Virus record (IMG/VR): IMGVR_UViG_3300042691_006267
Coordinates: 1-29,942 of that record
Source: a virus
Direction: 5' to 3' (one strand)
DNA length: 29,942 bases
Both the position numbers and the translations under genes were made by a program. The notes under the pieces were generated by a model that was not told the origin of the DNA, searched no databases, and saw only the letters and a list, made by a program, of their open reading frames with translations. Numbering within the stretch: position 1 is the first letter of the stretch; each line of letters begins with the position of its first letter. Shown here one piece after another: positions 5,167 through 27,400 of the stretch.

Positions 5167-8100
5167 ATGGCAGAAAAAAACTCACTCTGGAAAAACATTA
5201 GGAAGAAAGCTGAACAAAACAGAAGGACAGGTAATAAACCTAAAGAACCTACTAAAGAAATGCTTGATCAAGAAAGAAAGATTAAAGCTAAGCAATATTA
5301 TAATGGAGGTCCAACAGGTAATGATGAAGATGATAAAATCATTGATCCTGCAGATTACTTAATTTCTAAAGTAATTATGAATAGAAGCAAAGATCAAAAT
5401 TTAGATCAAACAACTCCTATAAATAATAATGAAGATGGTGCTCCATATAGACCATTAAGCATTCCAATGGAAGGTTATGAATTACCAGAGAGAGAAGATT
5501 ATACTCCATATAAACCATTAAGTATTCCCATGATAGGTTATGAACCAGATCCATCTTTTTACAATACTCCATCTAAAACTGAAACTACAAAAGCAAGTAA
5601 TAAAACTAAAAATAAAAAACCAGTTAATAAACCAAATAATGTAAAATCCAATACTGGAAATTCTGAAATTTCACCATATACTAGATTTCTTTTAGATAAT
5701 TACAAGTATAAAAATCAAAATTCACAATATACACAACCTAGATATATAACAGAAAGAGATGCTAGTTCTACACCACTTAGTCCAGCAATTTCAACATCAG
5801 GTAAAGAATCTACACCTAGTTCATATGACACTCAAGCAATTCAAATAGCATTAGATTTAGGACAAATGGTTCCTAATCCATATGTTTCAGGTGCAGCTTA
5901 TATTGCATCTTTACCTTTTACAACTATGGATGTATTTGATTCTTTAGATAAAAATGATTATAAACAGGCAGGTATTGATGCATTAGGATATATACCAACA
6001 TTTAGAGTATATAGGCGTGGTCTTAAAGGTAATAAATATTTAGATGAAACAAGTAAATTGGCTAAACAATATAAAAAAATCAATAATATAGTTAATACTG
6101 TTAATTTATCTAATGATGCGAGTAAAAAAGCTAATGGTGGACCTGTAGGTGATGATGATAAAAATAAATTATTAAAAGGAGAAAATGATACATTATTAGC
6201 ACCTACATTAAATACACAAGTTGTAGAAGAACAAGCTCCACAATGGATGAAAGACAAAGAAAGTCTTAATCCAGATGAAATTAATTTTTGGGAAAGTTTT
6301 AATCCTAAAAAATGGGGATTAAATGATTATTCTAATTATAGTTCTTTTAATTCTGCTTTTAGAAATGCTAGAGAAGCTGGTGAAAAAGAATTTGTATGGA
6401 ATAGAAATAGATATACTACTGACTTAGTTCCTGAAGAAATTAGTAATAATTATTGGGATTCTAAAAATTGGTTAGAAAATTATTACAAAAATGAAAATTT
6501 TTTTCCAGTAGATACTTCAATATCTGCATTAATGGATTTTTCTGAAAAACAATTTGGAAATCAATTTAAATATAACAATTATAATGAACTATCTCAAGAA
6601 GAAAAATTAAACTTTGAAAATGCACAAAGACAAAAATATATAGATGCTTTAAATGATCCTAACTATTATTTTTCAATTACAACACAACCAAATGTTGATG
6701 AAGGTATTTTAGCATCTCATTTTTCAGATGAAGATAGAAAATGGATTCATGTTAGTAATAAAGGTGGTAATAATCCTGCTAATGATTATACAACATTTAT
6801 TCATGAACTTTCACATAAAGGAGATTCAAAAAGTAGATTAGAATATTATAATCAAAGTAACAGAATTCCTAAAGTAGATATAGACGTACTTAATAAATTT
6901 GGTACTAGATTATCTCAAAAGAGATTTGAATATGTTAATAGACCTACTGAAACGGAAGCTAGAAAAATGTCTACTCTTTACTTTATGAATAAAAATCTTA
7001 AAAAAGATATTAGTTCTGGAAAAATAAAAAATAAAGATCTTACTGAGTTGTATAATATTTTTAACTCAGAAGGAGGACATGGAAAATCTAAATCTATACC
7101 TGATGATGTACAAGATTTATTAGAATTATATAAATATCAATGGAATGATTTATTAAAATATTTAAATAATGATTTTTCTTATGCTCAAGGTGGTTATGTA
7201 GATGGTGATGATGATAAAAAGAAAAAGACTAGAGTATATACAGATCCTAGAGAATTTAGAATAGCTCAGCAAAATTATAATGATAGTTTAGCTGTAGCTA
7301 ATCATTCACAAATACTTATAGATGCATATAATAGAGCTAGAGGAACTAATACAGGATTATCTAGAACTGAATATCGAAGAGTAAACTCTGATAATCCATA
7401 TCCAGCTGATGCTATTTCAAGATTAAATAGACCAAAACCTATATCAAAATATAATATAAATATAACTAATAGTAAAAGACCTGATTTAGATGGTATACAT
7501 ATATTTAAAGAACCAGAAGTTATACCAGTATTTAGAAAACCAGAAATAGAACTTATACCTTCAAAACCTTATAAAGGTGAAAGTACAGAACCAACTATTA
7601 TTCCAACTCCTCCTAATGTTGATTTTGGAAAACCAAATTTAGATAATTTTTTTGAAGGTACATATGAAAAATACAGAAAATCTCCTTATGAAGATCCTAT
7701 GTATAGAGTATGGATTTCTGGTCAACAACAGCAAATAGTACCTGAATCAGAATTTAAAAAGTTAAGTGATCAATATCTTCTTAAAGATTTAGATGCTCCA
7801 GATCCAGGAGGAAACTTGTATGATAAACCAAAAGCTACAGGTGGATACATGTATGATGGTGGGGGTGATGTTAAAGTTGGTGATGATGGTACTCCATTAG
7901 CACCTACTTTAAAAGAACTTGAAGTTATAGATGAAGCTACAGGTTGGGCAAGAATATGGCAAGATGAATATAATAAAAGATTAGGAGCTCAAAAAACATT
8001 TCAAGAAAGTTGGTATCCTGGTCAAGAATATGATCCTACAAATATAGAAAGAAGAGCAAGTATAGCAGCAGATGATGCTGCTGCTAAATATATATTAGAT

Positions 8101-11100
8101 AATCATGCTTCAAGAAATGATTTTGCAAACAGACAAGAATACTTGAAATCATTTAATCCTTATGAAAGAGAAGTAATTGCAAGATCTAATTATGCTGGAA
8201 ATCTTGATCCTGATATGGGTTCTAGATTTAGAAAAGGTTTAGGTTTATTAATGGGAACAAGATCAGCACTTACTAACCCAGATCCTGATTTAAGTGCTGA
8301 AGATTATGCTGATACAAATTTTCTTAGTAATATAGGAGATATATTTAGTCCAGCAACTTATTTTCTAAATCTTGGAAAAGGTGCAGCAACAGGTACTTTT
8401 GCGTCTGCTCTTAGAGGTAAACCATCTAATCCTTGGGTAGATGCTACAGATATGCCACTAGGTGATGAAGAAGATGTATGGAAATATAATGTAGAAGGTG
8501 ATATTATTATGGACCCTTTAAATTTTGCAGGTACAGGTATTGGTAGTTCATTATATGATGATTTAGGTAAAGTAGGTAAGTTTACAGCAAAATCTTTTAA
8601 TAAAATAGCTACAGGTAATTCACGTTTAACAGATTTAGGTTTTCCAGCTTGGAAGGTAGAAAAACCCTCAACTGGTTCAATATATTCAGGATTAAGTAGA
8701 CCTTATATTGCTAGAAATGTTACAGATAGAGAAGCAGAATTATTAAGTAAATTTGGTAAAGGTATGCGCCTTTCACCAGAAGAGTGGAAAGAAATGGAAG
8801 CATTAGTAAAATCAGGAGCTACAGATTTTAGTAAAGAAAACATTCCTATTAGTAGAATAATTGGTTACTATAATAGAGGTAATGCAGAAAATCAAATTAT
8901 TGAAAATTTAAAAACAGGAGAAGTATTTACTACACCTACTACAGAAAATATTAGAACATGGAGCGCAGGTGTTCCAGATGTTAGTGGTTCAGAATATTTA
9001 AAAGGAAAAACAAGATTAATTATTCCTAGTAGATATACTAAAGATTTAGGTAGTCATTTTTCTGCTATGCCATATGATGATTTGAGAATAGGATTTATTC
9101 ATGAAAATCCTACAACAGGTATGAGACCACATTTTAATTTTAATGCTGCTAAAGAAAATGAATTAATGGGAAATATTCCTGAAGGATTTAAAGTAATAGG
9201 TAGAAGTAAAGAAGATGGATTAAACAACTTAATTATTAAACCAATTAAATCTAAACAAACATCTAGTTTAATAAAAAATGAAGATAATTTAAAATATTCA
9301 ACAATATTAAATGAAATTAATGAAATTAAAAGTGAATTATCAAATGCATTTAAAGGTAGCAAAAGTTTTTTTAATGAAATAAAAGGTGAATTGTTACAAG
9401 GAAAAGCTAACAAAGAAACTATTAAAAAAGCCAATGAATGGTTAAAAAATTGGATTGAACATCCTGCAACACAAAAAAAAATTGATACTGATATAGATAA
9501 TAAAATAGATTATGTTACACAATTTTATAAGGATCCTTTTTTAAATGAAGAATTAGAAGTACTTAATTTAATTAAAGAACAATCTAAAAATTTTAAACCT
9601 AATAGTAAAGAATACTCTTTATTAAAACAATTAGATGATAATCTACAACAATATTTAATTATAAAATCTAGAAAATCAATTCATCAAAATAATTTAGGTG
9701 TAAGTTATCAACATAAATATCATCCAATACATAGACAAAATATAGAAAAAGGAATACAAGAACCTTATGATAGATATGGTAGTTTTATTTCAAGAAGAAC
9801 TAGAATGCCACAATCTAAAAGAATGAATGTTACTATTCATGAAGGTGGACATGATTGGGTTTCTGAAGAAGCTTTTAAAAAATCAGGAATGAGAAACATT
9901 GCTCTTAAAAACATGAATCCTGATATCAAAAAAGATTTTTTAGAATGGGAATATTATAATAATATGGGAATTGATCCTGTTAAAAAAATGGGAAAAGAAA
10001 GAGCTTATCAAGCTTATTTAGCTGATCCTACAGAACAACATGCTAGAATAATGGAATTAAGATATCAATTAGATATAACTCCTGATTATATAATGGATGA
10101 AAAAAAAGCTAAAAGTGTTATAGATTGGATAGAAAGTGGTTATAGTACTGTAGATTCTAAATTTTTAAATGTAATAGATAGAGATCCTAAAAAACTTGCA
10201 GAACTTTTTAATAAATTTTGGATGGCTCCACCAGCTATAATAGGAACAGGAGTAGTAGGAGCAGGAGTAATGCAAGACTCTCAACCTGAACAACAATCAC
10301 AAGGAGGTTATATAAATCCATATATGTACTATGCAGGTGGACCAATTGATTTAGAAGGAAATGATAAAATCTATTCTACTACTCAACAAAATTCATCACA
10401 ATCTAGTATAAATGGTAGAGTTAAAAATTATTATAATAATTTTCTAAATGCTTCTACTAATATAAATTCAAATGGTAATATCACTAATCAATATAGTAGA
10501 CAAACTACTGATCCTAATTCTACTCCTGTTATAAATTATTTTAATGATAGTGATTTAGGAAGTCAATTAAAGATAGCAGGTCCTAATAACAATCATGCTT
10601 TTATTAAACCAGATCCAATAATGAATAACTTTTTAAATAATAGAACTCAATATTTATCTGGTGCAATGTCAGATTTAAATTATGCAGAAGGTGGTGTACT
10701 AAAAGATATTGGTAAATTATTTATAAACAACATAGTTAGTCCATTTGAACATATAAGTGGTAATAACTTTTATAATCCTGAATATGAAAATAAAGGGTTT
10801 GCAAATACAGCTGCTGTAATGGAAGGATTTGCAGGTTTAGGAACTGATATTGCAGGTTCAATATTTTTAGGTCCTGCATATGGAATGGGTAAAGGTGCTA
10901 TACAAGGAGTTACTAAAAATTTAGGACATAGTCAAGAATATCAAAGAGGTGCTGATAAGTGGGCAAATAAAACAGGTCAAATAGCATCTAGTGCAGGTAA
11001 TTTAACTTCTGGTATAATAAGTGGTAATCCTCAACAAATTATTGGTGGTGCAGGTCAAGTATTAGGAACTTTAGGTTCTGAATTTGGTTCTAAAAAATTA

Positions 11101-13797
11101 AATGCTGCTGGACAATTAGTAGGAATGGGTTCTCAATTTGTAAATCCTTCACAAGGTATGCCAAGTACAACACCATCAGTAGATTCAAGTATAAATAATT
11201 TTCAAAGTCCAGTAATGTATCCTGATCAAATGTTAAATCAAGGATTATCATTTGCAGCTACTGGTGGTCCTTTAAACAATAAAGAATATTTAGTAAATTC
11301 GCAAATAGATTCTATGAGAAATAGATATAAAACTTACAAAACCAAATACAGACAAGGTGGTTCAATGAACCAATCTAATGTAGACTTTATTTCAGATAAA
11401 GCAGGATTACATCGAGAAAATGTTTACGAGGGAGTTCATCTTACTAAAGGAAAAGGTGCATATGCTAATGGTGGTGCAGCTTTAGTTGAAGCAGGTGAAG
11501 GTGTTATTCGTGATAAACAGGGTAATCCTTCATTTATTCTTCCTGATCAAGGAAATGGTGAACCTGTATATATGTTACAACCAAATGCTAGTTATACAGA
11601 TTTTGAAAGAGATAAAGATGGTAATTACATTGAATTACCTATTACTGTAGCAGATTGGAGAAAAAAAGAAGAAAAAAGAGGTAGTAACTTTAGAGATCCA
11701 GAAAATGATTATATTTCAAATCCTAGAAAAGATAACGCTAATCAACTAGCTATGGCTGCTACAGAAATTCAAAAACAATTAAAAGCACAAAGAGATATGA
11801 ACAATGAAATGATGGTTGAAGGTGCTTTACAAATTGCTGCAGCTGGTGGTAAGTTAAATAAAGATCTTGAAAAGATTTTAAGTAATGATATCCAAAGATA
11901 TGTTGAAGCAGATAATTATTATGCTTATGGTGGATATCTTCCTAAAGATAAAGGGTTTAATATGCCTAATTCCTATGCTAAAGGTGGTAGTATTCATATT
12001 AAGAAATCTAAAAGAGGTACATTTACTGCTGCAGCTAAAAAGAGAGGTAAGTCTGTACAAGAGTTTGCAAGACAAGTATTAGCTAATAAAGAAAACTATT
12101 CTTCAGCAATGGTTAAGAAAGCTAACTTTGCTAGAAATGCTGCTGGTTGGAAACATGCACATGGTGGTCCAATGGTATCTAATGTTGCACAACCATTTCA
12201 AGTAGCTGCACAAAATAGAGGTGGTATGATGATGGCTAATGGTGGTATGATGCAACAATCTAGTCAGCAAGACCAAATGATGCAAATGGTGCAACAAGTT
12301 CAAGAGATGTTAATGCAAGGTGCTAATCCTCAAGAACTTTTAAAACAACTTATGAAATCAGGATTACCACAAGATCAAGCACAGCAACTTGTTCAAGCTG
12401 CAATGCAAGACTTAGAATCACAACAGCAGTCACAACAAACACAAATGGCTATGGGTGGTAAAATGTATGCTAATGGTGGTCCTCCATATGATTTACCAGG
12501 AATGTTTGATATGACTGCAAATCCTGGTACAAGAACTATTGAATCTACTGGAGAAACTTGGGAAGATCCTGGAACAATGTATGAGTATGATGCTATAAAT
12601 AATTATTTAACTAATTTAGATACACCTAATGTAATAGATGCTCAAGGTAATGCAACTAGTATTTTAGATAGACAAAAAAATATAAATACTACTACACCTA
12701 ATCCAATAAATAATTTTTTAAATACAGCTAGAAATTATTTAAAACAAAGAGGATTTAGAGTTGGTAATAAAAGTATGAATAGTATGACTCAGGTTCAACA
12801 ACCTAATATAAATCCTACTAATCAACCTAGTCCATTTTTACCAGAATCTTTAAGACCAGTAGAACAAATACCTGGACCATATACTCCTCCAACATATGGA
12901 CCTATGACTGAAGAAGAAGCTGCGCTGCAATTAAGGAAAATTGTACCACTAGAAACTATGCCTATTAATAGTATATTTCCAGAAAAAATAACAACACCTA
13001 TTAGCCCTTTACCTCCTTTATCAGAAGATGCTACTTATTTAAGTCCTTATGAAAGATATTTAGTAAACAATTATCCTAAAGGTTTGAATAATTTACAATA
13101 TGATGATTCTGGTGAATATACTGGATTTATAAATTCAAATAATAGTAAAAATTCTGCATCACCTAATTCAACAACACCTTGGTATAAAGAACCTTTTTAT
13201 TCTAAAGCAGCTAGATATTCACCATTATTTGCAAGTGCTGCAGGAGTTATTACTGGATTACAAAATAAGAAAAGATCTTTAACTCCTGAAGATATATCAC
13301 CTTCTAAAATTAATTTAGAAAGATCTAGAATAACTACTGCAGAAGAAGGTAGAAGAGGATTAGATACTGCATTAAGAACTGTTAGAGGTGGTGCTAGTAG
13401 TAGTGGACAATTAAATGCTGCTGCAAGAGATTTGGTTTTAACAGGTAATAAAAATATAGCAGCTAACATTAATAAACTTTATGAGACAGAAGAAAATACT
13501 AATGCTATGAATTTGTACAACAGTAATTTAGCTAATCAACAATATCGTAATCAATTTAAAATAACTAATGAAGAGATGTTCCAAAATGCACAAAAACAAG
13601 CATTAAGAGCAGCACAAGAAGGTACACAAAATCTACAAGGTGCAGCTCAAGATGAAAGAGCACAATACTTGCAAGAATGGATAGCTCAAAATAGATTGAA
13701 TACAAGAAGTTATAAAACAAATATTAATGGTCAAGATGTATATATTAACCCTGATGGTAAAGTATATGACATAAATGGAAATCCAATTACAGTTTAA
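5167..13797 (+). CDS. Giant modular virion cargo-like protein with two zincin modules and Gly-Gly motifs
   Basis: A 2876-residue multidomain protein, probably packaged in the capsid or tail. Visible in order: a short tandem repeat (residues 93-126); a first zincin, HELSH at 546-550 with a downstream PTETEARKM (E595/E597); a disordered Pro-rich part (~760-880); a second zincin, HEGGH at 1558-1562 with PTEQHARIM (E1623); a Gly/Ala-rich hydrophobic region (~1850-2010); a basic domain with RGTFTAAAKKRG (~2280-2335); a Gln/Met-rich helical stretch (~2360-2430); and a conserved-looking helical C-terminus (~2690-2876) that resembles cargo proteins of crAss-like phages. About 17 motifs such as YAxGG, ANGGP and YAGGP separate the modules. 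The two peptidase modules look paralogous. Cleaving host envelope proteins, or processing this chain at Gly-Gly, are both possible. The start is 2 bases after the previous stop. Cargo role is moderately sure, peptidase activity inferred from motifs. Confidence 0.7.
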   Translation: MAEKNSLWKNIRKKAEQNRRTGNKPKEPTKEMLDQERKIKAKQYYNGGPTGNDEDDKIIDPADYLISKVIMNRSKDQNLDQTTPINNNEDGAPYRPLSIPMEGYELPEREDYTPYKPLSIPMIGYEPDPSFYNTPSKTETTKASNKTKNKKPVNKPNNVKSNTGNSEISPYTRFLLDNYKYKNQNSQYTQPRYITERDASSTPLSPAISTSGKESTPSSYDTQAIQIALDLGQMVPNPYVSGAAYIASLPFTTMDVFDSLDKNDYKQAGIDALGYIPTFRVYRRGLKGNKYLDETSKLAKQYKKINNIVNTVNLSNDASKKANGGPVGDDDKNKLLKGENDTLLAPTLNTQVVEEQAPQWMKDKESLNPDEINFWESFNPKKWGLNDYSNYSSFNSAFRNAREAGEKEFVWNRNRYTTDLVPEEISNNYWDSKNWLENYYKNENFFPVDTSISALMDFSEKQFGNQFKYNNYNELSQEEKLNFENAQRQKYIDALNDPNYYFSITTQPNVDEGILASHFSDEDRKWIHVSNKGGNNPANDYTTFIHELSHKGDSKSRLEYYNQSNRIPKVDIDVLNKFGTRLSQKRFEYVNRPTETEARKMSTLYFMNKNLKKDISSGKIKNKDLTELYNIFNSEGGHGKSKSIPDDVQDLLELYKYQWNDLLKYLNNDFSYAQGGYVDGDDDKKKKTRVYTDPREFRIAQQNYNDSLAVANHSQILIDAYNRARGTNTGLSRTEYRRVNSDNPYPADAISRLNRPKPISKYNINITNSKRPDLDGIHIFKEPEVIPVFRKPEIELIPSKPYKGESTEPTIIPTPPNVDFGKPNLDNFFEGTYEKYRKSPYEDPMYRVWISGQQQQIVPESEFKKLSDQYLLKDLDAPDPGGNLYDKPKATGGYMYDGGGDVKVGDDGTPLAPTLKELEVIDEATGWARIWQDEYNKRLGAQKTFQESWYPGQEYDPTNIERRASIAADDAAAKYILDNHASRNDFANRQEYLKSFNPYEREVIARSNYAGNLDPDMGSRFRKGLGLLMGTRSALTNPDPDLSAEDYADTNFLSNIGDIFSPATYFLNLGKGAATGTFASALRGKPSNPWVDATDMPLGDEEDVWKYNVEGDIIMDPLNFAGTGIGSSLYDDLGKVGKFTAKSFNKIATGNSRLTDLGFPAWKVEKPSTGSIYSGLSRPYIARNVTDREAELLSKFGKGMRLSPEEWKEMEALVKSGATDFSKENIPISRIIGYYNRGNAENQIIENLKTGEVFTTPTTENIRTWSAGVPDVSGSEYLKGKTRLIIPSRYTKDLGSHFSAMPYDDLRIGFIHENPTTGMRPHFNFNAAKENELMGNIPEGFKVIGRSKEDGLNNLIIKPIKSKQTSSLIKNEDNLKYSTILNEINEIKSELSNAFKGSKSFFNEIKGELLQGKANKETIKKANEWLKNWIEHPATQKKIDTDIDNKIDYVTQFYKDPFLNEELEVLNLIKEQSKNFKPNSKEYSLLKQLDDNLQQYLIIKSRKSIHQNNLGVSYQHKYHPIHRQNIEKGIQEPYDRYGSFISRRTRMPQSKRMNVTIHEGGHDWVSEEAFKKSGMRNIALKNMNPDIKKDFLEWEYYNNMGIDPVKKMGKERAYQAYLADPTEQHARIMELRYQLDITPDYIMDEKKAKSVIDWIESGYSTVDSKFLNVIDRDPKKLAELFNKFWMAPPAIIGTGVVGAGVMQDSQPEQQSQGGYINPYMYYAGGPIDLEGNDKIYSTTQQNSSQSSINGRVKNYYNNFLNASTNINSNGNITNQYSRQTTDPNSTPVINYFNDSDLGSQLKIAGPNNNHAFIKPDPIMNNFLNNRTQYLSGAMSDLNYAEGGVLKDIGKLFINNIVSPFEHISGNNFYNPEYENKGFANTAAVMEGFAGLGTDIAGSIFLGPAYGMGKGAIQGVTKNLGHSQEYQRGADKWANKTGQIASSAGNLTSGIISGNPQQIIGGAGQVLGTLGSEFGSKKLNAAGQLVGMGSQFVNPSQGMPSTTPSVDSSINNFQSPVMYPDQMLNQGLSFAATGGPLNNKEYLVNSQIDSMRNRYKTYKTKYRQGGSMNQSNVDFISDKAGLHRENVYEGVHLTKGKGAYANGGAALVEAGEGVIRDKQGNPSFILPDQGNGEPVYMLQPNASYTDFERDKDGNYIELPITVADWRKKEEKRGSNFRDPENDYISNPRKDNANQLAMAATEIQKQLKAQRDMNNEMMVEGALQIAAAGGKLNKDLEKILSNDIQRYVEADNYYAYGGYLPKDKGFNMPNSYAKGGSIHIKKSKRGTFTAAAKKRGKSVQEFARQVLANKENYSSAMVKKANFARNAAGWKHAHGGPMVSNVAQPFQVAAQNRGGMMMANGGMMQQSSQQDQMMQMVQQVQEMLMQGANPQELLKQLMKSGLPQDQAQQLVQAAMQDLESQQQSQQTQMAMGGKMYANGGPPYDLPGMFDMTANPGTRTIESTGETWEDPGTMYEYDAINNYLTNLDTPNVIDAQGNATSILDRQKNINTTTPNPINNFLNTARNYLKQRGFRVGNKSMNSMTQVQQPNINPTNQPSPFLPESLRPVEQIPGPYTPPTYGPMTEEEAALQLRKIVPLETMPINSIFPEKITTPISPLPPLSEDATYLSPYERYLVNNYPKGLNNLQYDDSGEYTGFINSNNSKNSASPNSTTPWYKEPFYSKAARYSPLFASAAGVITGLQNKKRSLTPEDISPSKINLERSRITTAEEGRRGLDTALRTVRGGASSSGQLNAAARDLVLTGNKNIAANINKLYETEENTNAMNLYNSNLANQQYRNQFKITNEEMFQNAQKQALRAAQEGTQNLQGAAQDERAQYLQEWIAQNRLNTRSYKTNINGQDVYINPDGKVYDINGNPITV
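5302..12483 (+). repeat. Dispersed Gly-Gly peptide motifs (YAxGG / ANGG / YAGGP) in the cargo protein
   Basis: Short motifs ending in Gly-Gly are scattered through the 2876-residue protein. Those seen have their glycines at residues 47-48 (NGGP), 324-325 (ANGGP), 675-676 (YAQGGY), 892-893 (ATGGY), 1713-1714 (QGGY), 1724-1725 (YAGGP), 1842-1843 (YAEGG), 2033-2034 (ATGGP), 2064-2065 (RQGGS), 2102-2103 (YANGG), 2227-2228 (AAGGK), 2255-2256 (YAYGGY), 2273-2274 (YAKGGS), 2333-2334 (HAHGGP), 2352-2353 (NRGGM), 2359-2360 (MANGGM), 2430-2431 (MAMGGK) and 2437-2438 (YANGGP). They sit mostly between recognisable modules and become dense after 2030. Their function is unknown to me; processing sites or short interaction motifs are the two simplest readings. 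Confidence 0.7.
5443..5544 (+). repeat. Two-copy 63-bp tandem repeat in the cargo gene
   Basis: The protein motif PY[R/K]PLSIPM[E/I]GYE occurs at residues 93-105 and again at 114-126 with a period of 21 residues. The DNA copies start at 5443 and 5506 and differ at several third positions (AGC/AGT, CCA/CCC), so the duplication is not recent or is under protein-level selection. It lies in a Pro/Lys/Asn-rich, probably disordered N-terminal segment. Confidence 0.75.
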
Positions 13798-13809: not shown

Positions 13810-16293
13810 ATGAATTTATTTGAATACACCCCACAACCTTATAAAAGTACTAGAGTAGATTTACCTTTAGACTTTATTTATAAACAGCTTGAAACTAAAC
13901 AAAAAGAGTTTGATGCACAAGCTGCAGCTGTTGACAAAGCAACTGAAAACTTTATGAAACTTGATTATGGCATGTTAACAGAAGATGCATATAAGAGAGT
14001 TATGGAAAGTTATTTACCTAGACTTGAAAGTATTAGAGATAATTTATTTGCTACAGGTAATGTTGCAATGGCTGCACCAGATCTTGCTAAGTTTACAACA
14101 GATCTTGCAGGAGATCCTGAAGTTAAAAACATGTTAAAAGATGCTCAGCTAACTGAAACATATAGACAAGCTGTTCAACAAGGATTGTATACAGATAAAG
14201 ATCTTCCAGGATTATTTGTTGCCCCAGGTAAATTAAGAGATCAACTTGGAGTAGGTCAAAAAACTTCACCAATTTACTATTCACCAATGGAATTTGTTGA
14301 TCCTTTAACAGAATTAGGTGCTGAAGCTGATAAGTATGTTAAAGAAATAGAAAGAGATAACCCTGCTGTATTTAGACAAACTAAAGATGGTAGAACTATA
14401 ACTACTCAAGAAGGATATAAACAAAGAAAGTATGAAAAGCTTAGAGAATATCTAGATGCTAGACATGATAGTTGGAGATTAGATCCTAAAAATCAAGGTT
14501 ATTTTTATAGGTCTACTGGATCTAAACCAGAAACTTATACTAAAGAGAAGTGGATTTCTGAAGTAAGTGATCCATTGTCTAAAGCATTAGCTTATGAAAA
14601 CAGAAGTATAGAAACACAAATATCTGGAACACCAAATGTACCAGGTTTAAATAAACCAAGTGGTGATGGAACTACTGATAAAAAAGATTCTAAAGTTACA
14701 GGACATCCTACAAGGTTTACTTTTTCAGCATCAACTCCAGGATTCCCATCTTATAAGAAAGATGATTATGTTACAAATGTTGATGATTTCCAAAGAGATA
14801 TTGATGAATCACTTGCTGATATGAGATCAGCACAAGAAGCTATTTCAAAACTATCAGGTGGAACTTTAGCTAAAGGAGATCCTTATTATGAAAATTATAG
14901 AAATGAAACAAGAGAGTGGATATTTAACAATTATCAAGTTGTAGATGGAAGATGGGAACTTAAACCAGGTTCAAGTGCTCCTGCAATAACTCCTGATATA
15001 TCAAAAACATTATCACAATTCCAAGATGCTACAATATCATATAATAATAGAACACAAACATTAAAGGATATAAAAGAAAATGCTGGTGTTAAAAATTGGG
15101 ATATGAATGCAATAAGAGAAGCAGAATCAAGTTTAATGTTAGGTACTAATGTTCCTAGTGGATTAGATGCACCTGATGAAGAATTTAAAAGATATAGAAC
15201 ATTCTCTGATCGTGCTATAATTGACTATCTTTCAAATAAAGGAATGGACCCTAGGTCTAGTGAGTTTAGAAGAGAAAGAGAAAGATTACAATCTTTATCT
15301 CCAAGTAGTTTATATAGTTTAATTTCATCTGGAAAAGTTATTGATACTCCAGGTATATCTACTTTCTTAAATGCATTCAAAGATCCTCAAAATCTTACAT
15401 TTAAAGAAATTAATAAATTCTTATCTGAAGGTAAATCTAAATTATTAGAAGGTACTAATGAAGGTAAAGTATATGCTGCATTTGATAATATAGCTAAGAA
15501 AATATCTCAAATAAGTATATCACAATTACCTGATAGTCCACAAACTAATAATTTAGAAAGTGGATTAATTAGTTTAATTCAAAGTGCAGGTATACCTGCT
15601 GTTGATATAAGTAATGATACAAAATTAGATAAAGATGATCTTGATGAAAACTTTACAAAGTTTATTCCTATAAATAAAGATGGAACTATTGATCTTAGCC
15701 AAGTTCAAACTTCAATAGGATATTCACCAAAATATGGTGTTATTGGACTTATAAGTTTTGGAGGTAAACATTATCAAGTAGATTTGGCAAATTCAAATAT
15801 TGATCAATTATTTACAGATGAATATCCTGAATATGCTGCAGAATTAAGAATGTATGATCAAGTTAGTAAATCTCTTAAGAGAACAGGTATGAGAGAAGGT
15901 ACTTTTAATATAGGAAATCTTTCATTTAAGTTTAATTTGAAAAGCAAAAATCTTTCATCAGCTAATCCAGAATATTCATATGAAGAAATATTTGATGGAA
16001 CAAATACTCAACAACATTCAAACTTGGGTACTATATTTGAAAAAGCTCTTTCAATTGCTAATCAAAGAGAAAGTCTTTATGATAGATTGGAAGAAGATAT
16101 AAATAGACAATACCTAGAAGAGTTTAATGCATTAGATATGATGGATGTAGAAGGTGCAAAAAGACTAAAACAAAAAAGAGATGAAAGACTTGAAAATCTT
16201 AGACGAGCTAAAACTCAAGGTACAACTGTAGGAGATGAATCCTCGGGAAAGTCGGGGGAGTGGAGAACAAGCCCCAAAACTCCACTCAAGTAA
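13810..16293 (+). CDS. Helical virion/cargo protein, upstream partner of a probable -1 frameshift fusion
   Basis: An 827-residue hydrophilic protein. The N-terminus (LPLDFIYKQLETKQKEFD, residues ~18-35, continuing helical to ~130) matches my memory of conserved internal virion proteins in crAss-like phages and related prophages. The centre is mixed helix and loop; residues ~755-805 are a charged coiled-coil-like helix (DRLEEDINRQYLEEF, then KRLKQKRDERLENLRRAK). No catalytic motif is apparent. The zero-frame C-terminus, after Lys814, is only 13 residues (SGEWRTSPKTPLK). The end of the gene overlaps the M23 frame and carries a slippery heptamer at 16245-16251. A -1 shift there would replace those 13 residues by 713 residues including an M23 peptidase, giving about 1527 residues. 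The gene starts 12 bases after the cargo gene, in the same frame. Virion role is likely; exact role unknown. Confidence 0.68.
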   Translation: MNLFEYTPQPYKSTRVDLPLDFIYKQLETKQKEFDAQAAAVDKATENFMKLDYGMLTEDAYKRVMESYLPRLESIRDNLFATGNVAMAAPDLAKFTTDLAGDPEVKNMLKDAQLTETYRQAVQQGLYTDKDLPGLFVAPGKLRDQLGVGQKTSPIYYSPMEFVDPLTELGAEADKYVKEIERDNPAVFRQTKDGRTITTQEGYKQRKYEKLREYLDARHDSWRLDPKNQGYFYRSTGSKPETYTKEKWISEVSDPLSKALAYENRSIETQISGTPNVPGLNKPSGDGTTDKKDSKVTGHPTRFTFSASTPGFPSYKKDDYVTNVDDFQRDIDESLADMRSAQEAISKLSGGTLAKGDPYYENYRNETREWIFNNYQVVDGRWELKPGSSAPAITPDISKTLSQFQDATISYNNRTQTLKDIKENAGVKNWDMNAIREAESSLMLGTNVPSGLDAPDEEFKRYRTFSDRAIIDYLSNKGMDPRSSEFRRERERLQSLSPSSLYSLISSGKVIDTPGISTFLNAFKDPQNLTFKEINKFLSEGKSKLLEGTNEGKVYAAFDNIAKKISQISISQLPDSPQTNNLESGLISLIQSAGIPAVDISNDTKLDKDDLDENFTKFIPINKDGTIDLSQVQTSIGYSPKYGVIGLISFGGKHYQVDLANSNIDQLFTDEYPEYAAELRMYDQVSKSLKRTGMREGTFNIGNLSFKFNLKSKNLSSANPEYSYEEIFDGTNTQQHSNLGTIFEKALSIANQRESLYDRLEEDINRQYLEEFNALDMMDVEGAKRLKQKRDERLENLRRAKTQGTTVGDESSGKSGEWRTSPKTPLK

Positions 16294-16300
16294 CAGGGGG
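16245..16300 (+). promoter_or_regulatory. Probable programmed -1 ribosomal frameshift signal
   Basis: The heptamer GGGAAAG at 16245-16251 lies in the zero frame as G GGA AAG, the canonical X XXY YYZ form and the same heptamer as the lambda G/GT tail-chaperone frameshift. After a 6-nt spacer comes a perfect 8-bp inverted repeat, GAGTGGAG (16258-16265) with CTCCACTC (16280-16287), with a 14-nt loop. The loop contains CCCC (16272-16275), which can pair with GGGG in the G run at 16296-16300 to form an H-type pseudoknot. The -1 frame is open only from 16239 (TGA at 16236-16238) and the zero frame stops at 16291-16293, so the heptamer is inside the short overlap. The surrounding 60 bases are about 58% G+C in otherwise very AT-rich DNA. 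All elements are seen directly; function is inferred. Confidence 0.85.
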
Positions 16301-18392
16301 AACAGGACCTTATGGAGAGTATCATTTACCATTAGCACAGTATAGTATAACAAGTGGTTATGGAACTAGAAAAGATCCTCATACAGGAAAAGAGTCACAT
16401 CATAATGGTTTAGATTTAGCTGTACCTGAAAACACACCTATTGTATCTCCATTAGATGGAGAAGTTCAAACTGTTAGTTATGATAAACTTAATGGTAATT
16501 ATGTTGCAATTAAACATACAGATGGTTCTAGATCAGGATATGCTCATTTAAATAGTTCTGATGTTAAAGTTGGTGATAAAGTATATGCTGGTCAAACAAT
16601 AGGTTTATCAGGAAATACTGGAAAATCAACAGGACCTCATTTACATTTTACATGGAAAACACCTGATGGTAAAAATGTAGACCCTGCAACAATTTTTGAT
16701 TTTAAATCAAGTGATGGTAAAACATATAGAACACCAGGAACTAAAACTTATACAAGTGGAATTAGATCAGAAGGTGGTAAAGGAAAACTATTAAAATTTG
16801 ATAATCCTAAAGATGCATATAATAGTTCTTATAATGATGTTTGGGCAAAGTTAAATGGAAAATCTAATTGGGTAAAACCTAGTACTACTGTAGATGAATA
16901 TATAAATAGATATGCACCAAAAGGTGATGGTAGTAATGATCCTCCAAAATATATTAATCACCTTGTTAATTATTTTAATAATATTCTAGGTTCTGCAGTA
17001 ATATCTGCTACATCAACATTATCTGAAATTAAAAACATTTTAATGGATAATGGATTTGATCCAGAACATGAATTCACTAAAATGCATTTAGCTCAAGAAA
17101 ATCCAGCAGTTTTAAAAGATTTAGGTATTTCAACACCTTCAACAAGTAGTGGAACTAAAAAAGTAGAAAAACCTGCAGCAGCTAAACCTGCAGCTAAAGC
17201 ACCTGTTAAAACAGAAGTTAAAAAAGAAGCTCCTAAAAAAGTATTAACTGAAGCTGAAAAGAAAAAAGCTGCTGAACTTTCTGATAAACTTTATGGTACT
17301 AAAAAAACAGGTACACTTGATTTAGCAAGAGAAGCTGCTGCTAAAGCAAAAACTGCACCTAAGCCAGTACCAAAACCTGCACCTAAAAAAGAAGAACCTT
17401 CTATGTTTGATGTTTTTACTTCAGGTATAAGCTCAGTAATTGATGATGTAAGTGATGCTGTTGATGCAGGTACACAATATATTGATGATGCTATGAGTTG
17501 GGCAGAAAGAGCTGCAGTTAAATCTGGAGCATCTGAAGTTACAGAAACTAAAACTGTTAAAACAGAAGTACCTTACAAATCTGATGTTGTTTCTAGTGGT
17601 GTATCATTTATAGGTGAAGTACCTGGTGAAAAAAGTTCTTTTGCAACTTTTTATAATAAGTTTGATAGAAATACTGGTTTTGAATATGTACCTATTAAAA
17701 ATGTAGGTAAAAGTAATAATAAAACAGAATACTCTAATGTAAAAGGTATTGCACACTTTATATTAGATAGTGATGCAACAGATGATTATAAACATGAATA
17801 CTCTGTTAACTATATGAAGAAACAGTTAAAAGGTGAAAACATAGCAGCAGGTTCTACTGTTAAAGATCAATTTGTTCCTGTTAGAGTAAAAAATCCTTCT
17901 AATGGTAGAGTTAGAGTTAAATATAAAAAGGTATCTGAATTAAAGAAAGAGGATTACTATATGGCACCATTAAGACAGTATAGATATACAGATATTAATT
18001 GGGATGGTAAGGTTGCTGCTAAAGGATTTGCAAGTACTATTAAAGCATTACCTACTAAATCAGGACAGCAAACATATTTTATATTTCCAAATACAAAAAC
18101 TGGTAAATCAACATATGGCAAATTTGGAGGAGGCTCTGTAGTATTTTTAGCTGAAAATAAAAACTTTGCTATAGATTTTGCAGGAAGTATTGATGATATT
18201 AAAAATATGGCATTGAAGATTATTGAACAAGAAAAAATTAAACCTGAGAATTTAATTATAGCATACCATGATTTAGGAAGTTTTTCAGCTAAACCTAAAG
18301 CAGGTAAGGATAATAAATTACGTTTTACACAATGGTCTGGTTTTAATAATGCTCCTTATACAGGAGGTGCTTTAGCTTATCCAAGTAATTAA
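16260..18392 (+). CDS. M23/LytM-type peptidoglycan endopeptidase domain, probably expressed as a frameshift extension
   Basis: The frame encodes a zinc D,D-endopeptidase domain followed by a long tail. Numbering from GTG 16260, the M23 motifs are complete: HxxxD as H48-NGL-D52, H96 in YAHL, and HLH at 127-129 within GPHLHF. This family cuts peptide cross-links in peptidoglycan, so the protein probably helps DNA entry through the cell wall. Residues ~300-380 are an Ala/Pro/Lys-rich linker; the C-terminal ~250 residues form an unrecognised domain ending in a Gly/Ala/Tyr-rich tail. There is no signal peptide. The first in-frame ATG codes for a Met near residue 260, after the catalytic domain, so an ATG start would lose the enzyme. 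The GTG at 16260 lies inside a GC-rich stem. Expression as a -1 extension of the 827-residue protein is therefore the better explanation. A 1-nt indel in the nearby G run is the main alternative. Confidence 0.82.
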   Translation: MENKPQNSTQVTGGTGPYGEYHLPLAQYSITSGYGTRKDPHTGKESHHNGLDLAVPENTPIVSPLDGEVQTVSYDKLNGNYVAIKHTDGSRSGYAHLNSSDVKVGDKVYAGQTIGLSGNTGKSTGPHLHFTWKTPDGKNVDPATIFDFKSSDGKTYRTPGTKTYTSGIRSEGGKGKLLKFDNPKDAYNSSYNDVWAKLNGKSNWVKPSTTVDEYINRYAPKGDGSNDPPKYINHLVNYFNNILGSAVISATSTLSEIKNILMDNGFDPEHEFTKMHLAQENPAVLKDLGISTPSTSSGTKKVEKPAAAKPAAKAPVKTEVKKEAPKKVLTEAEKKKAAELSDKLYGTKKTGTLDLAREAAAKAKTAPKPVPKPAPKKEEPSMFDVFTSGISSVIDDVSDAVDAGTQYIDDAMSWAERAAVKSGASEVTETKTVKTEVPYKSDVVSSGVSFIGEVPGEKSSFATFYNKFDRNTGFEYVPIKNVGKSNNKTEYSNVKGIAHFILDSDATDDYKHEYSVNYMKKQLKGENIAAGSTVKDQFVPVRVKNPSNGRVRVKYKKVSELKKEDYYMAPLRQYRYTDINWDGKVAAKGFASTIKALPTKSGQQTYFIFPNTKTGKSTYGKFGGGSVVFLAENKNFAIDFAGSIDDIKNMALKIIEQEKIKPENLIIAYHDLGSFSAKPKAGKDNKLRFTQWSGFNNAPYTGGALAYPSN

Positions 18393-18424: not shown

Positions 18425-21400
18425 ATGGATGAACTTGAAAAACTGTTTCAAAACGGAACTATAGATTCAGAAACCTATCAAAGATTAAAGCAACAATATA
18501 ATCAGGATGCAATAAACAAAGAGTATCAATCTAATCAAAGTGCTTTAGAACAAGCTAATAGATATTATCAATCTCAAGTAAGTTCTGGTTTAGGTACAAT
18601 AACTATTGGAGGAGATGTAAATAAAAATGTTTATGTTGATCCTGATGAAATGGAATCTTACCTTTCAAGAGGTATTATGCCATCTTATGGAGTTGATTAT
18701 GAAAATGTTAGAGCTGAGAGACAAACTTGGCAAGATCAATTAGCTAATGGTGCTTTAAAATTTGTAGGTAAAACTGCTACTGGTGTTGCAGGTGGTTTTG
18801 CTATGTTACCTACTTTAGCTATTGTCAGTGTAGGACAAATAGCTGACTTAGCTAGTAATTCAGATAATACTGAATGGAGAAATATATATGATAATGGTTT
18901 CCAAAGAATGATGGATTCTTATAATGAAGCCATGGATAAATCATTACCTAACTATGTATCTAATGCTGAAAGAGAAGCAAGTGCTTTAGGTTCTATGGGT
19001 ACAATGAATTTTTGGGCTAATGATGTATTAGGAGGAGCTTCATTTGTAGCATCAGCATTATTAACAGAATACTTATCAGCAGGTTTAGCTACACCACTTG
19101 CATTAACTAGAGCAAGTAAATTATTAAAAGCAGCTAGTACTGCTGATGATATGGCTGTAGTTAATAGATATGCTGAAAAATTTAGTGGTTATGTTAAAGC
19201 AGATAGAACTTTAAAACTTGCTAGACAAATGGTAACTGGTGCAGGTTATGAAGCAGGTGTAGAAGCTAGGCATTTTGTAGATCAAGCTAAAGATGAATAT
19301 ATTAATGATTATTATGAAAAGTATGGTGAAGAACCTTCATCTGAAGAAATTGCTGCAGCTATGAATGATATTCATTCAGTAGGTAATTGGGTATTTGGAA
19401 TTAATTTAGGTTTAGTATCATTAGGCAATATGGTTACATTACCTAAAACATTTGCTCCAGGATTAGCTTCTAAGTTTGGTTTTAAAGCAGGTAAAGTTGC
19501 AGATGCTGATTGGGTAGTTAGACCTTCAGAACTTACTGATACTCAATTAACTAGAATGGCTAAAAAAACTGGTAAGTCTATAGAAGAACTTAAAGCAGCA
19601 GAATATTTAAATAAATGGGATGGATTAAGTAAAATTGAAAGATTAGGTAGAAATGCTAAAGGTAGATTTGCACCAATGGCTACAGAAGGTTTCTTTGAGG
19701 AAGGTCTTCAAGGTGTAACTCAAAATGCTGCTTTAGATTATGTAAGTAATAGATTAAATCCTGATAACATGGAAGATGTTGCTAGTGTTAGTGAATCTGT
19801 TATTAGAGGATTTGAAGAACAATATGGTTTACAAAATTCAGAAGGTTGGAAAGAAATTATTATAGGTTCTATTCTTGGTGGTATTGGTGCTCCTAATATT
19901 GGTAGAGCTAAAGGACAACCTGTTTGGCAAGGTGGAGTATTTGGATATCAGTCTCCTGGTAAAAGAGAAGGTATTCAAAATTTAATTAGTGAAGCTACTA
20001 AATATGGTAGAGCTACTCCTGAAGTTGTTAAACATGCAGCTACTATTGTAGGTACAAATAAAAAACAAGATGATGCTATTGCACAAGGAGACATGTTTGA
20101 AGCTAAAAATCAAGAGTATGCTTCAATGTATTCTTATGTAAGTACTATGGTTAAGCTTGGAAGATTTGATGAAATTAATTCTGAAGTTGCTAAGATGGTA
20201 GAAAAAATGTCAGCTGATGAATTTGGTGAACAATTTGGATATACTAATCTTACAGAACAAGAATTAGCTGAAAGAAAAACTGAAGTACTTTCAACATTTA
20301 AACAGAGAGCTAATGATATTAGAGAAGCTAGAGAACTAGCAAATAAAATTTCTATATATGATGATGATGAAGATTTAAAAGATGGTTTAGGATATGTATT
20401 AGGTATATCTAAAAACATTGATGAAAGAGAAGAGCAAATGTTTAAAACTCTTCAAAAGAAATTAGGTTTACTTTATGATAAATCTACAATTAAAGAGTTT
20501 GCATCTTTTGTTGAATTTCAAAAAACTACAAGTAGCAAGTTAGTTAATGAATATACTAAGAAAATAAATGAACTTGAAAAGTTAACATCTGATGAATTAA
20601 AAGCTAATAAAAATAGAACCTCTAAACAAATTATGGATAGAGGTAAAGAAATAGATAAACTTACTAATGAAATTTCTGCAATAGAAAGTAGATTAGAAAA
20701 AGAATTTAATGCTTTTATTAAAACTTATGAAGCTACTGGTAAAGGTGAAACTATAAGTTATAACAGAGATAGACAAAAGTTTAAAACTGCATACAATAAT
20801 TTTATAATGCTTCAAAATGAAGCTATTGAAAATGTAGGTGAAGACTTCTATAATAGACCTGATGTTAAACCAATATTTGATGATTTAATGAAACTTGCTA
20901 CTTACAGACAGCAGCAGATTACATTAGCTAATTATTACATGACTGAAAATGGTCAAAATAAATTAGCTAGTGAAATTGATAATCTTAAAAAGATGGCTGC
21001 TGATGAACTTGTTAGTGATGAGTTAAATCGTTCAGCAATGGAGTTTGGTTTAACAGGTAATGTAGATACTAGAATGCAAGATGTTGCTGCAAGAGCTTAT
21101 AAGAAAAAAACATTAGGAGTTAATCCTGATGAAACTTATGAACCATCAGAAGAGCTTGATGCTATTAATAATATATTACAAAACTTACCTAATGGTCCTC
21201 AAAAAGATCAATTCTTAAGAGCAATGCAACTTGTTAATGAAAAGTTAAACTCTAAGAATATAGATGATATAGAACCTTATTTAAACAATATATATACTGA
21301 ATTATTTAATTCTGAATTAGGTGATACACCAGAAGGTAAACAAATATTAGATAGAATTAGATTTGCATTTGATGAAATTATAAGTTATTTAAAAGCACCT

Positions 21401-24400
21401 AAAACTACAGCAGCTATTTCATCTATTAATAGATTCTTTAGAGTTTATGTTCCAGAAGAAGTAGATGAATATTTAGCAAATACATTTACACACCCTTCTG
21501 ATTTTACAGTAAAGCTTGAAGAACTTGATCCTGAAGATCCTTATGTTAAACAACAAGAAGAAAGTAATAGGATTGTCTTTCTTAAAGATGAAGAAAAAAA
21601 TAAAATACTTACTCCTTTTATAGCAATGCAATCTTTAATTAAGCATAATGGTAAATACTATGCTATTAAATTAATGCATGAAAATAATTTTGTTGGATAC
21701 ATATTAGATCCTAATAGATATAAATTTAAAAATCCTAATACCAATGCTTATGAAGATTTTAATCCAAAGTCATTGGCACACTTAAGATTAATTAATCCAG
21801 CATTTGTATCAAAAGATAAAATTACTGCTGAAGGTCTTGAGTTTATTGAAGCATATACTCAAGGTATGAAGATGTTTAAATTCTTCTTAGATAAAATTGA
21901 TGAAGGTGCAAGTAAGGTTGGTACTAGAGAATTGTTAGAAAATGGATTCTTACTATTTGATAGTAAGTTTAATAGATATGATGATGGTGTTCCTGGTGAA
22001 CTTATAAAAGAACTTAGAGACAAACCTGAACTTTATAATTTAGTTCCTATGGATGAACCTAGAGGAATTGAAGTTAGAGAGGGTGAATTTGTAAAAGCTC
22101 CTTTTATTCAAGTTAAAGTTGGTAATAGTATAGATTATTATTATTATGATAGAACAGATGATTCTGTTAAGAGAGTAATTTATCAAGGAGGTATAGATAA
22201 ACTAAACACCTTATTAAAAATTAATTCTAAAAGTTCACAGTTTGGTATTAATAGTTCTAGAAACTTTATTAAAATAATTAAACCAAGTGATACTGGATTT
22301 AGTCCAATTAGTGTAAGAATACCAACTATAAATTTAGATGATGAAAATTCTTCTTTTATAAATGATTTTAAAAATTACATTGATCAATATATTGGTAAAA
22401 AGAAAGGTGAGTTTAGATACAAATCTAATTTCTTTAATACTAATATTGTAGGTTATACTGAAGGAGATGATTCTATTAATCTTAAATTATATTTAGATCC
22501 TGTAAACTCAAAAGGTAGTCAGTTTTTAAAACTTCAAATTTATTACAATGGTAAATTTGCAGATATTATTTTAGATGAGGTTGATGAAGTTTTAAATATT
22601 AAAAATGGAAAAGAGCTTCTTGACTTAATTAATAAAGAACTTAAAAAGAAAGCAGGTAAGATGGCAACTGCTGGTGTTCAATTACCAAAATCATTTGTTG
22701 CCACTGGATTTAACTATGCAACTAAAACTGCTGATATAAAAAGCATTTTAGAAACAGGTATTCCAACACTATTATCAAAAAGAGGTATTGTTTATAAACC
22801 TAAAGAAATTCAATTTAAAGATAAACCTGAAGAAACTACTGCTGAAGCTACAGGTACATATACAAAAGAAGATTTTCTTTCAGCAGATGAAGTTGAAGAA
22901 GCTGGTGGATTTAATTGGGAAGATGAACCTGCTAGTGAAGAACAACCTCAAGGAATAAATTTAGGAACTGCAGCTAGTGATGCTTTAAAAGCAAAAGGTG
23001 TAAAATTTGGATTTACTGAAGATCAAATAGATTCAATGTCAATTGAAGAAAGAGATGTTATAAGAAAATCTAATGATAAAAGTGATAGTGAAATAAAAAA
23101 TCTATTTGATAAATATAATAAAAAAGATACAGAGGAAGATGATGATTTTATTCCTGCTTATAAAATTGATGAACGCACTTCAGATTATGAAGAGAGTTTA
23201 GAAAGTAGACAAGAAAAACTTGAAGGTATATTACCAAGTTGGATACCTATTAGAGACCTTGAACAAATCAGAAGCAGATTTAAAAACAAAGGTTTTACAT
23301 ATGGAGTATTTATTGACAGTGTTGTATATCTAGCTAAGAATGCACCTAAAGGTGTTGAGTACCATGAAGCATTCCATGCTGTATTTAGAACACTATTAAA
23401 TGATGCTCAAATATCAAAAGTATTACAAGAAGCAGTTACAAGATATGGTAAACCTACTGATCAAGATATTGAAAACTTAAGAAGTAAGTCTGCAGAATAT
23501 ACTAATTTAAATCTTGATACTTTAGTTAAACTTTGGTATGAAGAAAAATTAGCAGATGAATTTCAAAGCTTTATGCTTAAAAAAGAAAAGCCTAAAACAT
23601 TTATACAAAAAATGTTTGACTTAATTAAGAAGTTTGTTAATTGGGCAACTAATAATAAAAGTTATATTGATGGTTTATTTAAAGATATTAAAAGAGGTGT
23701 TTATAAAAATGCATCAGCTGTTAGAAATCAATATTATCAAAAGTCATTAGCTGCATTTAAAACTCTTGAATTTGAAGAACAGTATGAAGGTGCTAAAAGA
23801 ACTAGAACATTAGATTCAAGAACTACTTCTAACATTGCAAATAAAATATTAAAGAAAGCTTTTGATTTAAGTAAGATTAGTGATGTTACTGATCTTGATA
23901 TAAAAAATATAATTAAAGATTTAATAGACAATTATTATACAGAAGAAAACTTTGAAGAGTTATTTAAACAATCAACTCCTGCTAAAGTTAATTCAGCTAA
24001 AAAACAATTATCTCAAGTAAGAAATGCTTTATCTAATCCTAAAAATGTAACAGAATTAGTTAAAGATGTACAGAATTTATTATCAATGTATAAGATTGTA
24101 GATTATACTTTAGAACCAGATGAAGATCAAGATAACCAAGAACTTCCTACAGAATTCTTTGCAAAAGAAGTTTCTACTATTGGTGGTATAGGAAGTCTTT
24201 CTAAAGAAATGAGAAAGTATTTACAGTTTATACCTTCACCAGTAGATGAGTTTGATTTAGGTGTAACTATAGATCCATCTTCTCAATTTGTATCATATGC
24301 TGATTCTTATGAGCTTTATAATGGTATTGCTAGAATATTAGCTAATAGAAAGCCAAGTGATATTATTAAAGCTTTGTATTCTCAATCTAGAACTAATGAG

Positions 24401-27400
24401 CAATTAAAATATTTTACTGCACAAATATTTTCAGACATAGCAAAAGATTTAGATCTTACAAACTATAGTCCTAAAGAAATATCTGAGTTAGGTTTACTTA
24501 CTTTAGAAAAGTCAACAACATTCCAAATGTTTGTTGCAAACTTTAGAAAAAATAAAATTGATTATATAAGTATAACACCTGATGTTGAAACTAATAAGTT
24601 TAAATTATTTAGATCTAACATTAATGATGTTAAAGATATTCAAGTTGACAGTTGGGGTAACGCTAACTTAAGTAATCCTGTAAGTAGTGAAGATCAAGGA
24701 ACTTTATTAAATAAACTTAGAAATACATTTAGAAATATAAAAGAAGGTGAAGAGTCTATTAAAAATTTAAAACAGTTTGTTGATACTGTTGAGAAAATTA
24801 AATCTGATTTAAAAGCATTACATATTGATGTAAGTGATTTATATGTAAGACTATCATTGTTTAATTCTCTTCCTAATAAATTAGATTTAGCAGCAAAAGA
24901 TGATGATGGTACTTTTGAAAATCTATCAGAAACTCTTTCTGTATATCCTGAAGTTTTTTATTTAAATGATGAACTGTTTACATCAATGTCAAATGCCACA
25001 ACTAATGGTGGCTCTATATATCAAAAGGTTGAAGGAAAAGATTCTGGTGCTATTACTAGATTAAAAAATATTGCAGAAGCAAACTCTTATTTTGACTTTG
25101 CAGTTATACCTACTACATTTAAAAACATTGAAGGTAAAACAATATACTCTTATATTCAACCTAACTATATTACAGATATTGTAAATAGTTTAAAAGATAA
25201 TCCTGATGTAATTATTGATGCACTAAATGATCCTAATCCTGAAACAGGGTATTTAACATTTAGAGATTTCTTAATTGCTAATAATTTAGAATCAAATGAT
25301 TTTCTTCAAAGAAAGTTTTATAACTCATTAAGATACAATCCTCAGTTAAGTTCTGTTGATGCTAAAACTTTCTTATCAGGATTAAATGCATTTATATTAG
25401 ATGGTTCAAGAGTAGTTAGACTTGATGATAATTATAAAGAGATAACTTACTTGAGTAATGATGATGGTAAAACTTTTCAATCTCTAGACCCTAGAGGTAA
25501 AATACTTACTTACTTCATGTTGTATAGTACAAAAGGTGGTCAAAACTCTATGGTAAAAACTGTAGATGGAGTTGAGTTTGTACCTTACATACCTTTCCAA
25601 AATGAAGGTAAGAATACACAATGGGCAGTTAGTATGCCTAAAGTTAAAGATGCTTTTTCAGAAGGTAAAATATCACAAGAAGCTTATGAAAAGATTTTTA
25701 AAATCTTTCAACTTGAACATAATAACTTGTTATCATTTTTCCAAAGTTTAAGAGATGATGAAACATTACCTATTGTAAAAGGTGTTACTGAATTTAAAGA
25801 TGGAGAATTAAAACAAGCTGTTGTTAATGCTTTAAAAAATGATGATTTTGAAGCATTATCAGAAATATATAAAACTAGATATAAAGAGTTGCCAAGAGCA
25901 ATGAAGTTTAGTAACATTGAATTCCTATTTAATGATGATAACATTGACTATTTAATTAAATCAGCATTTGATGGTGTTGAACTTGATTTGAATGATGAAG
26001 TTAAATCTTCAATTAACAAGCTTGTAGATAGTATAACTAATGAAACATTAGAAATGTTATCATCTGATAATATTAAACTCATTAGTAAAGTTGAAGAAGG
26101 TAAATATACAAATGTATTATTACCAAGAGAATTCTTGTTTGACAATGGTGATGTTGATGTTTCAAAGCTTAAAAACTTTTTACTTAATGATTACATAAAT
26201 TCTGTATCATTTATCAATATGTTAGTTGGAGATATGGCATTTAACTTTAAAGATGCTATTGATTTTCCAAAGAGAATGGCAGGACTAAATGCAGCTGGTC
26301 CATCATTAGGTTTAACTAAAAGTAATGTTACTATTATAAAAGATGTTGAAGGTGTACATGTTGATCTTGAAACAGGTAAAGCTGTTGGTAAAGAAAGAAC
26401 TGATGGTCAAAGTTATTCTACTCAAACTTGGTATGAAAGAAAATATTTAAGAACATTTAAAAAGTGGAATCCAGAAGTAGAGAGAATATATAAGAAGATG
26501 AGAAAGTGTCAAAAACTTTCTTGGTCTGAAAAAGAGTTCTTAGAAAACTATGGTGCACTTGCAAACTCTAGAAAGATTGCACTGTTTAATTATGCACTAT
26601 ATGGTAAAACATCTATTAATCCTATTGTAAGAAATGAGGTTTCATTTGTTAAACCAGAAAATCGTAAAGCAGTTAATGAACTTGTAGAAAGACTTTACAA
26701 AACTGATGATATAGCAGAATATAAAAAGATATTAACTAGTCTTCATAAATACTATGAACCTTATCCTCAAACTAGAAAGATGCATGAGCTTCTTAATAAA
26801 ATGGAATTAGGTGATACTGATATAGCTTTAAGTGAGAGTGCTGTTAAAACAGTTGTTTATAATTCACAAAATCCAGAAAATGTTAAGTCATTTGAAAATA
26901 TTGTAATGGGTGATACATACATCAGAGAACAAGTTGTTACTGATGGTATGAAAACTAAAGTTGTAGATCCTACTCAGTTATTACAGTTAATTGACAGTGA
27001 GCAAAAACCAGGAACTAAAGTAAGTGTCTTAGATAAAGAGTATGATATAGAAACTATTGTCAATGTATTTAAGAAAACTAAAGAGTATAGAGTAAAACAA
27101 AAATATGAAGAGTTAAAGAAATCTTATTCTGAAGGTAACAAACCTAGATATAAAGCATTACTAAAGTCATTTAGAGAAAGCTTATTAACTATGGGTACTG
27201 ATCCTATTATGTTAGAACTATTATCAGCTAGTGAAAATCTTGATAGTTCTAAGTATAACTGGAACATGAATAAAACTATTAGTGCTGTTGAAAAAATGCT
27301 TTACTCTTACTTGTCAGCATCACTATCACATAAAGTAGCTGGTCAAAAGTTTACATTATTAACTGATGATGCTTATAAAGTAATGGAAGACTCTAATGGT

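Follow-up and report, generated by a model that had tools for sequence, protein, structure and literature searches.

Both -1 programmed frameshifting and virion lysins are already known in phages; their combination appears to be new. In phage T7, the 10A/10B capsid frameshift sets a minor virion form, and the locus described here would resemble it in that respect, although the T7 product carries a short capsid-protein extension and no enzyme. The tail assembly chaperones, such as lambda gpG/gpGT, are alike in their coding: a -1 shift occurs near the 3' end of the gene at a heptamer of the G_GGA_AAG type, and a minor extended form shares its N-terminal part with the major one. However, these chaperones stay outside the virion, their extension is not an enzyme, and they are unrelated to the cargo protein considered here. 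T7 gp16 and other hydrolase ejection proteins are alike in being internal, ejected virion proteins that bear a peptidoglycan hydrolase, but theirs is in frame on every copy, no frameshift is involved, and no homology to the present protein was shown. A lysin with a frameshift is reportedly listed in the earlier literature, as a lysin gene and not as a virion cargo gene. Literature searches, incomplete in their coverage, returned no description of a frameshift-attached lysin on a virion cargo protein.

Gene order and the cargo protein

The window, i.e. the whole stretch of DNA analyzed, is a 29.9-kb viral record (IMGVR_UViG_3300042691_006267, 29,942 nt). An ORF at 266-5164 encodes the crassvirus muzzle protein (PF25731, 4.9e-142). 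It is followed, in order, by a giant ORF in the place of cargo protein 1 (C1), an 827-aa ORF in that of cargo protein 2 (C2), an M23 peptidase frame, and a second giant ORF where the RNAP region would be expected. In crAss001 the order is muzzle gp44, gp45, gp46, then RNAP gp47, and gp45 and gp46 were found in virions as cargo (PMC10172136). On the muzzle match and the muzzle/C1/C2/RNAP order, the window is a fragment of a Crassvirales genome, which bears out the crAss-like origin proposed in a preliminary description of this DNA.

The first giant ORF (5167-13797, 2876 aa) contains two HExxH motifs (HELSH at 6802 and HEGGH at 9838), possibly embedded zinc proteases; its matches to relatives are patchy, and ORF length at this position is very variable. 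The second (18425-29941, >3839 aa; phrog_32390) extends past the end of the window; in the relatives L031, L032 and L035 the ORF in this position is single and of ~4300-4470 aa.

The 827-aa ORF (13810-16293, + strand; stop codon 16291-16293) would yield a zero-frame product of 93.5 kDa. It was assigned as cargo-protein-2-like using synteny with crAss001 and hhalign, in which its family matched the gp46 set with a probability of 92.9% (E 3.6e-7) over only ~95 N-terminal residues. The gp46 position and this N-terminal profile homology sustain the earlier view of the protein as a cargo-type protein. The crAss001 counterpart differs in being a 60-kDa protein whose next gene begins 6 nt on, and in having no extension; packaging in virions was demonstrated for crAss001 gp46 only (PMC10172136). 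Direct searches with P0001, P0002 and the L034 cargo protein found no homologues except generic M23 matches.

The frameshift signal and the -1 frame

A slippery heptamer, G_GGA_AAG, lies at 16245-16251 (+ strand) in register with the 827-aa ORF. After a 6-nt spacer (16252-16257), a predicted stimulatory stem-loop occupies 16258-16287 (+ strand); its arms, GAGTGGAG (16258-16265) and CTCCACTC (16280-16287), form a perfect 8-bp stem around a 14-nt loop. Both elements fall within the region open in two frames, 16239-16293 (+ strand; 55 nt including the stop, 52 nt without it), and the preceding stop in the -1 frame is the TGA at 16236-16238. Heptamer, spacer, stem and overlap are thus all present where the preliminary description had put them. 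For an overlap of this size, an in-frame GGGAAAR would occur by chance with a probability of ~0.003. Taken alone, the stem of the window had no significance when compared to shuffled sequences (z -0.8; 16 of 60 shuffles were equally good), and in a 60-nt fold a GGGG/CCCC pairing competes with it; the stem was accepted because of the comparison with relatives, not on the window alone.

A Shine-Dalgarno-like AGGAG is located at 16230-16234, ~10 nt 5' of the heptamer. Its equivalents are AGGAGG in L031, L047 and L019 and GGGAGG in L120, and some loci have none. Such an element 5' of the heptamer is a feature of dnaX-type stimulators. Transcriptional slippage was considered and rejected for the GGGAAAG loci, which have no long homopolymer; it is allowed at L019, where the sequence contains a run of eight A.

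Past the slip site, the -1 frame continues for 713 residues (16245-18392, + strand), and the predicted fusion has 814+713=1527 aa and a mass of 169.6 kDa. A Peptidase_M23 domain is encoded at 16398-16685 (+ strand; PF01551, 6.3e-29, profile positions 2-96 of 96), with PDB matches 2gu1 and 9gy1. The near-full profile and both zinc motifs, HxxxD (HNGLD, 16401) and HxH (HLH within GPHLHF, 16632), confirm that the domain is complete, as had been claimed. A second module follows (16743-17020, + strand); it is similar to the first module of L042 and shows a weaker resemblance to the endolysin module of L098. The C-terminal module (FGGG...DLGSFS; 17499-18389, + strand) is common to other frameshifted extensions; its structural model (pLDDT 39.7) was too poor for use. 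It shares 57% identity with its L098 counterpart, whereas the two cargo proteins are 14% identical, a difference that points to module exchange. The same module also occurs outside a frameshift setting: in L122 (2452-6849) it is the in-frame C-terminal part of a 1466-aa protein that carries a PG_binding_1 domain.

The M23 frame had been described as lacking an ATG start, and this held: the sole early start-like codon is the GTG at 16260, within the stem, and the first ATG occurs 266 codons past the slip site, downstream of the M23 domain. That GTG is in frame and could in principle serve a separate gene, as could re-initiation, with no frameshift at all. The relatives make this very improbable (see below).

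Conservation of the signal in relatives

A search with the muzzle protein yielded 29 loci, and downstream DNA was retrieved for several. The first relatives with the layout of the window were L031, L034 and L035, each with a cargo ORF, a -1 overlap, an in-frame GGGAAA[G/A] and a strong stem. Later searches, run with alignments of cargo, lysin, muzzle and C-terminal-module sequences, brought the total to 16 distinct loci, in whose choice the presence of a heptamer played no part. In all 16, which are divergent crAss-like loci (just two pairs of their cargo proteins are >45% identical over 200 aa), the -1 overlap at the end of the cargo gene holds an in-frame canonical heptamer: GGGAAA[G/A] in 13, A_AAA_AAG in two and A_AAA_AAA in one. 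Using the codon usage of each gene, the 13 overlaps would all contain GGGAAAR by chance with a joint probability of ~1e-32; elsewhere in the same genes the motif was found once in 9,725 codons. The codon that precedes GGA in the first nine loci specifies Ser, Glu, Leu or Val, yet it always ends in G, and these G-ending codons are rare synonyms (2-12%) in the genes concerned. In L120 and L125 this codon is ATG.

A stem begins 4-7 nt after the heptamer in most of the 16 loci; it spans 9-11 bp in both A_AAA_AAG loci and is weak in L120 and L019. Covariation of the stem arms was assessed in the first nine loci in a nine-pair register. The register was set by hand and the pairs were counted by script, because two rows were out of register in the MAFFT alignment of the stem arms. 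Standard pairs made up 74 of 81, as against 49.7 expected, and none of 20,000 permutations of the partners reached 74. Thus, relatives keep the heptamer and the frame, and mostly the stem, though their proteins diverge and the type of enzyme changes. The -1 signal proposed earlier is upheld by the in-frame heptamer, its conservation, and the covarying stems.

The same loci bear on the start of the extension. An early ATG is missing from it in 15 of the 16 loci; the sole exception is L047, with an ATG 6 nt past the stop, which would suit a separate gene. Early GTG and TTG codons are absent as well in several relatives. Elsewhere the first ATG is inside the enzyme domain or past it, so that no early start is conserved, and a gene with its own start would leave the 16 heptamers and the covarying stems unexplained. 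With the lysin cases L049, L050 and L098 set apart, all remaining -1 overlaps between genes in the second batch have an ATG at most 15 nt from the stop and no canonical heptamer. A scan of genome contigs found nothing.

Since the window is a single metagenomic contig, and in-frame fusions occur in another clade, one might suppose that an indel in the G run, introduced in sequencing or assembly, has artificially split one fused gene. This is hardly credible: the -1 layout, with a heptamer of the same kind, recurs in divergent phages and in independent contigs from separate samples, and no relative with this layout has a single unbroken gene.

Enzymes attached in different lineages

The extension of the window is an M23 peptidase, while that of L019, a distant crAss-like locus (21333-22217) with the A_AAA_AAA heptamer, is NlpC/P60 (2.4e-7). 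The extensions of L098 and L119 match endolysin phrog_873 (to 6.5e-14), which we take from its motif to be “P5-type”. Eight loci encode a family in which a Glu and a GxYQH motif (GKYQH) are invariant. This domain was modeled with a pLDDT of 76.6, and its best Foldseek match, MltF, was not significant (E 0.75); from its sequence, it looks lysozyme-like (a candidate SLT/lysozyme-like fold). M15-like HxH motifs, a motif-level assignment, occur in L035, L120 and L125, in which these parts had no Pfam match and PDB searches found nothing. M23 was absent among the first 24 relatives. The idea that M23 is a private acquisition of the window was dropped; the -1 frames of relatives encode other enzymes instead.

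In a separate clade (L018, L022, L030 and others), the cargo-protein-2 homologue has a C-terminal M15-type domain in frame (L018, 18868-22260; L022, 18099-22373; L030, 19473-24227). The domain of L030 matches VanY at 3.5e-5, slightly below the Pfam cut-off, and an H, D, E, H motif is conserved in the clade. The cargo gene has no extension in L003, L004 and L012, nor in 14 reference Crassvirales, in which the next gene lies within ~20 nt. L005 was left out of this count, as its contig ends within the cargo gene. The swapping of enzymes between lineages, and the wide spread of the system in Crassvirales, go beyond what the preliminary description foresaw.

Stop reassignment is known in crAss-like phages. 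In two reference phages, cr109_1 (L108, 2829-4703) and cr7_1 (L113, 11368-13281), the cargo-protein-2 gene is full of stops under table 11, consistent with such reassignment; the window has no such stops.

Proposed mechanism and implications

In the best reading of the locus, which is very probably correct, a minor cargo-lysin fusion arises through -1 programmed frameshifting and is used in virion entry. We infer ordinary -1 tandem slippage because G_GGA_AAG, like A_AAA_AAG, shifts very readily in E. coli (PMC5009743) and a hairpin stands at a suitable spacing. Most ribosomes on the cargo-protein-2 gene would stop at 16293 and release the 827-aa protein. At the hairpin a minority would pause while G_GGA_AAG occupies the P and A sites, move one base backwards onto GGG_AAA and continue in the overlapping frame; the product would be the 1527-aa protein, whose C-terminal part comprises the M23 endopeptidase and accessory modules. 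The virion-binding part would be common to both forms; since they share the cargo part, the slip rate would set the fraction of cargo subunits with a hydrolase. Ejected as internal cargo, the fusion subunits would then cut peptidoglycan at the entry point.

Frameshifting could also be real and the fusion never packaged; it would then act in assembly, as lambda gpGT does, or serve in lysis at a late stage. The lambda gpG/gpGT pair indeed relies on -1 frameshifting, and both proteins are absent from the virion (PMC5009743), and the linkers and C-terminal modules of the present fusion have no assigned function. We regard this outcome as unlikely, however, as the gene sits in the gp46 position amid cargo genes and gp46 is present in crAss001 virions (PMC10172136). 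In addition, PDB entries 9m7n (Gp16) and 9k2v (Internal protein) contain M23 domains, T7 gp16 brings a hydrolase into the cell (PMC8954989), and in the other clade the enzyme is in frame and must go with the cargo protein. As has been argued for T7 gp16 (PMC8954989), local opening of peptidoglycan during ejection is the likely use of a packaged cargo-lysin fusion.

On balance, we favor the broader view that, in a large part of Crassvirales, cargo protein 2 bears this signal as a conserved “docking cassette”, behind which unrelated hydrolase families are exchanged; the entry enzyme would be changeable, and the slip rate would hold it at a low copy number. The loci provide a signature for finding virion lysins that stay hidden when gene callers truncate or mis-start them, and the module swaps constitute a natural series of entry enzymes that can be compared with host cell walls. 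If true, the proposed mechanism would mean that phages use frameshifting not only for assembly chaperones and capsids but also to control how much enzyme a virion carries, and would suggest how some of these tailed phages of Bacteroidota may breach peptidoglycan with a sub-stoichiometric enzyme.
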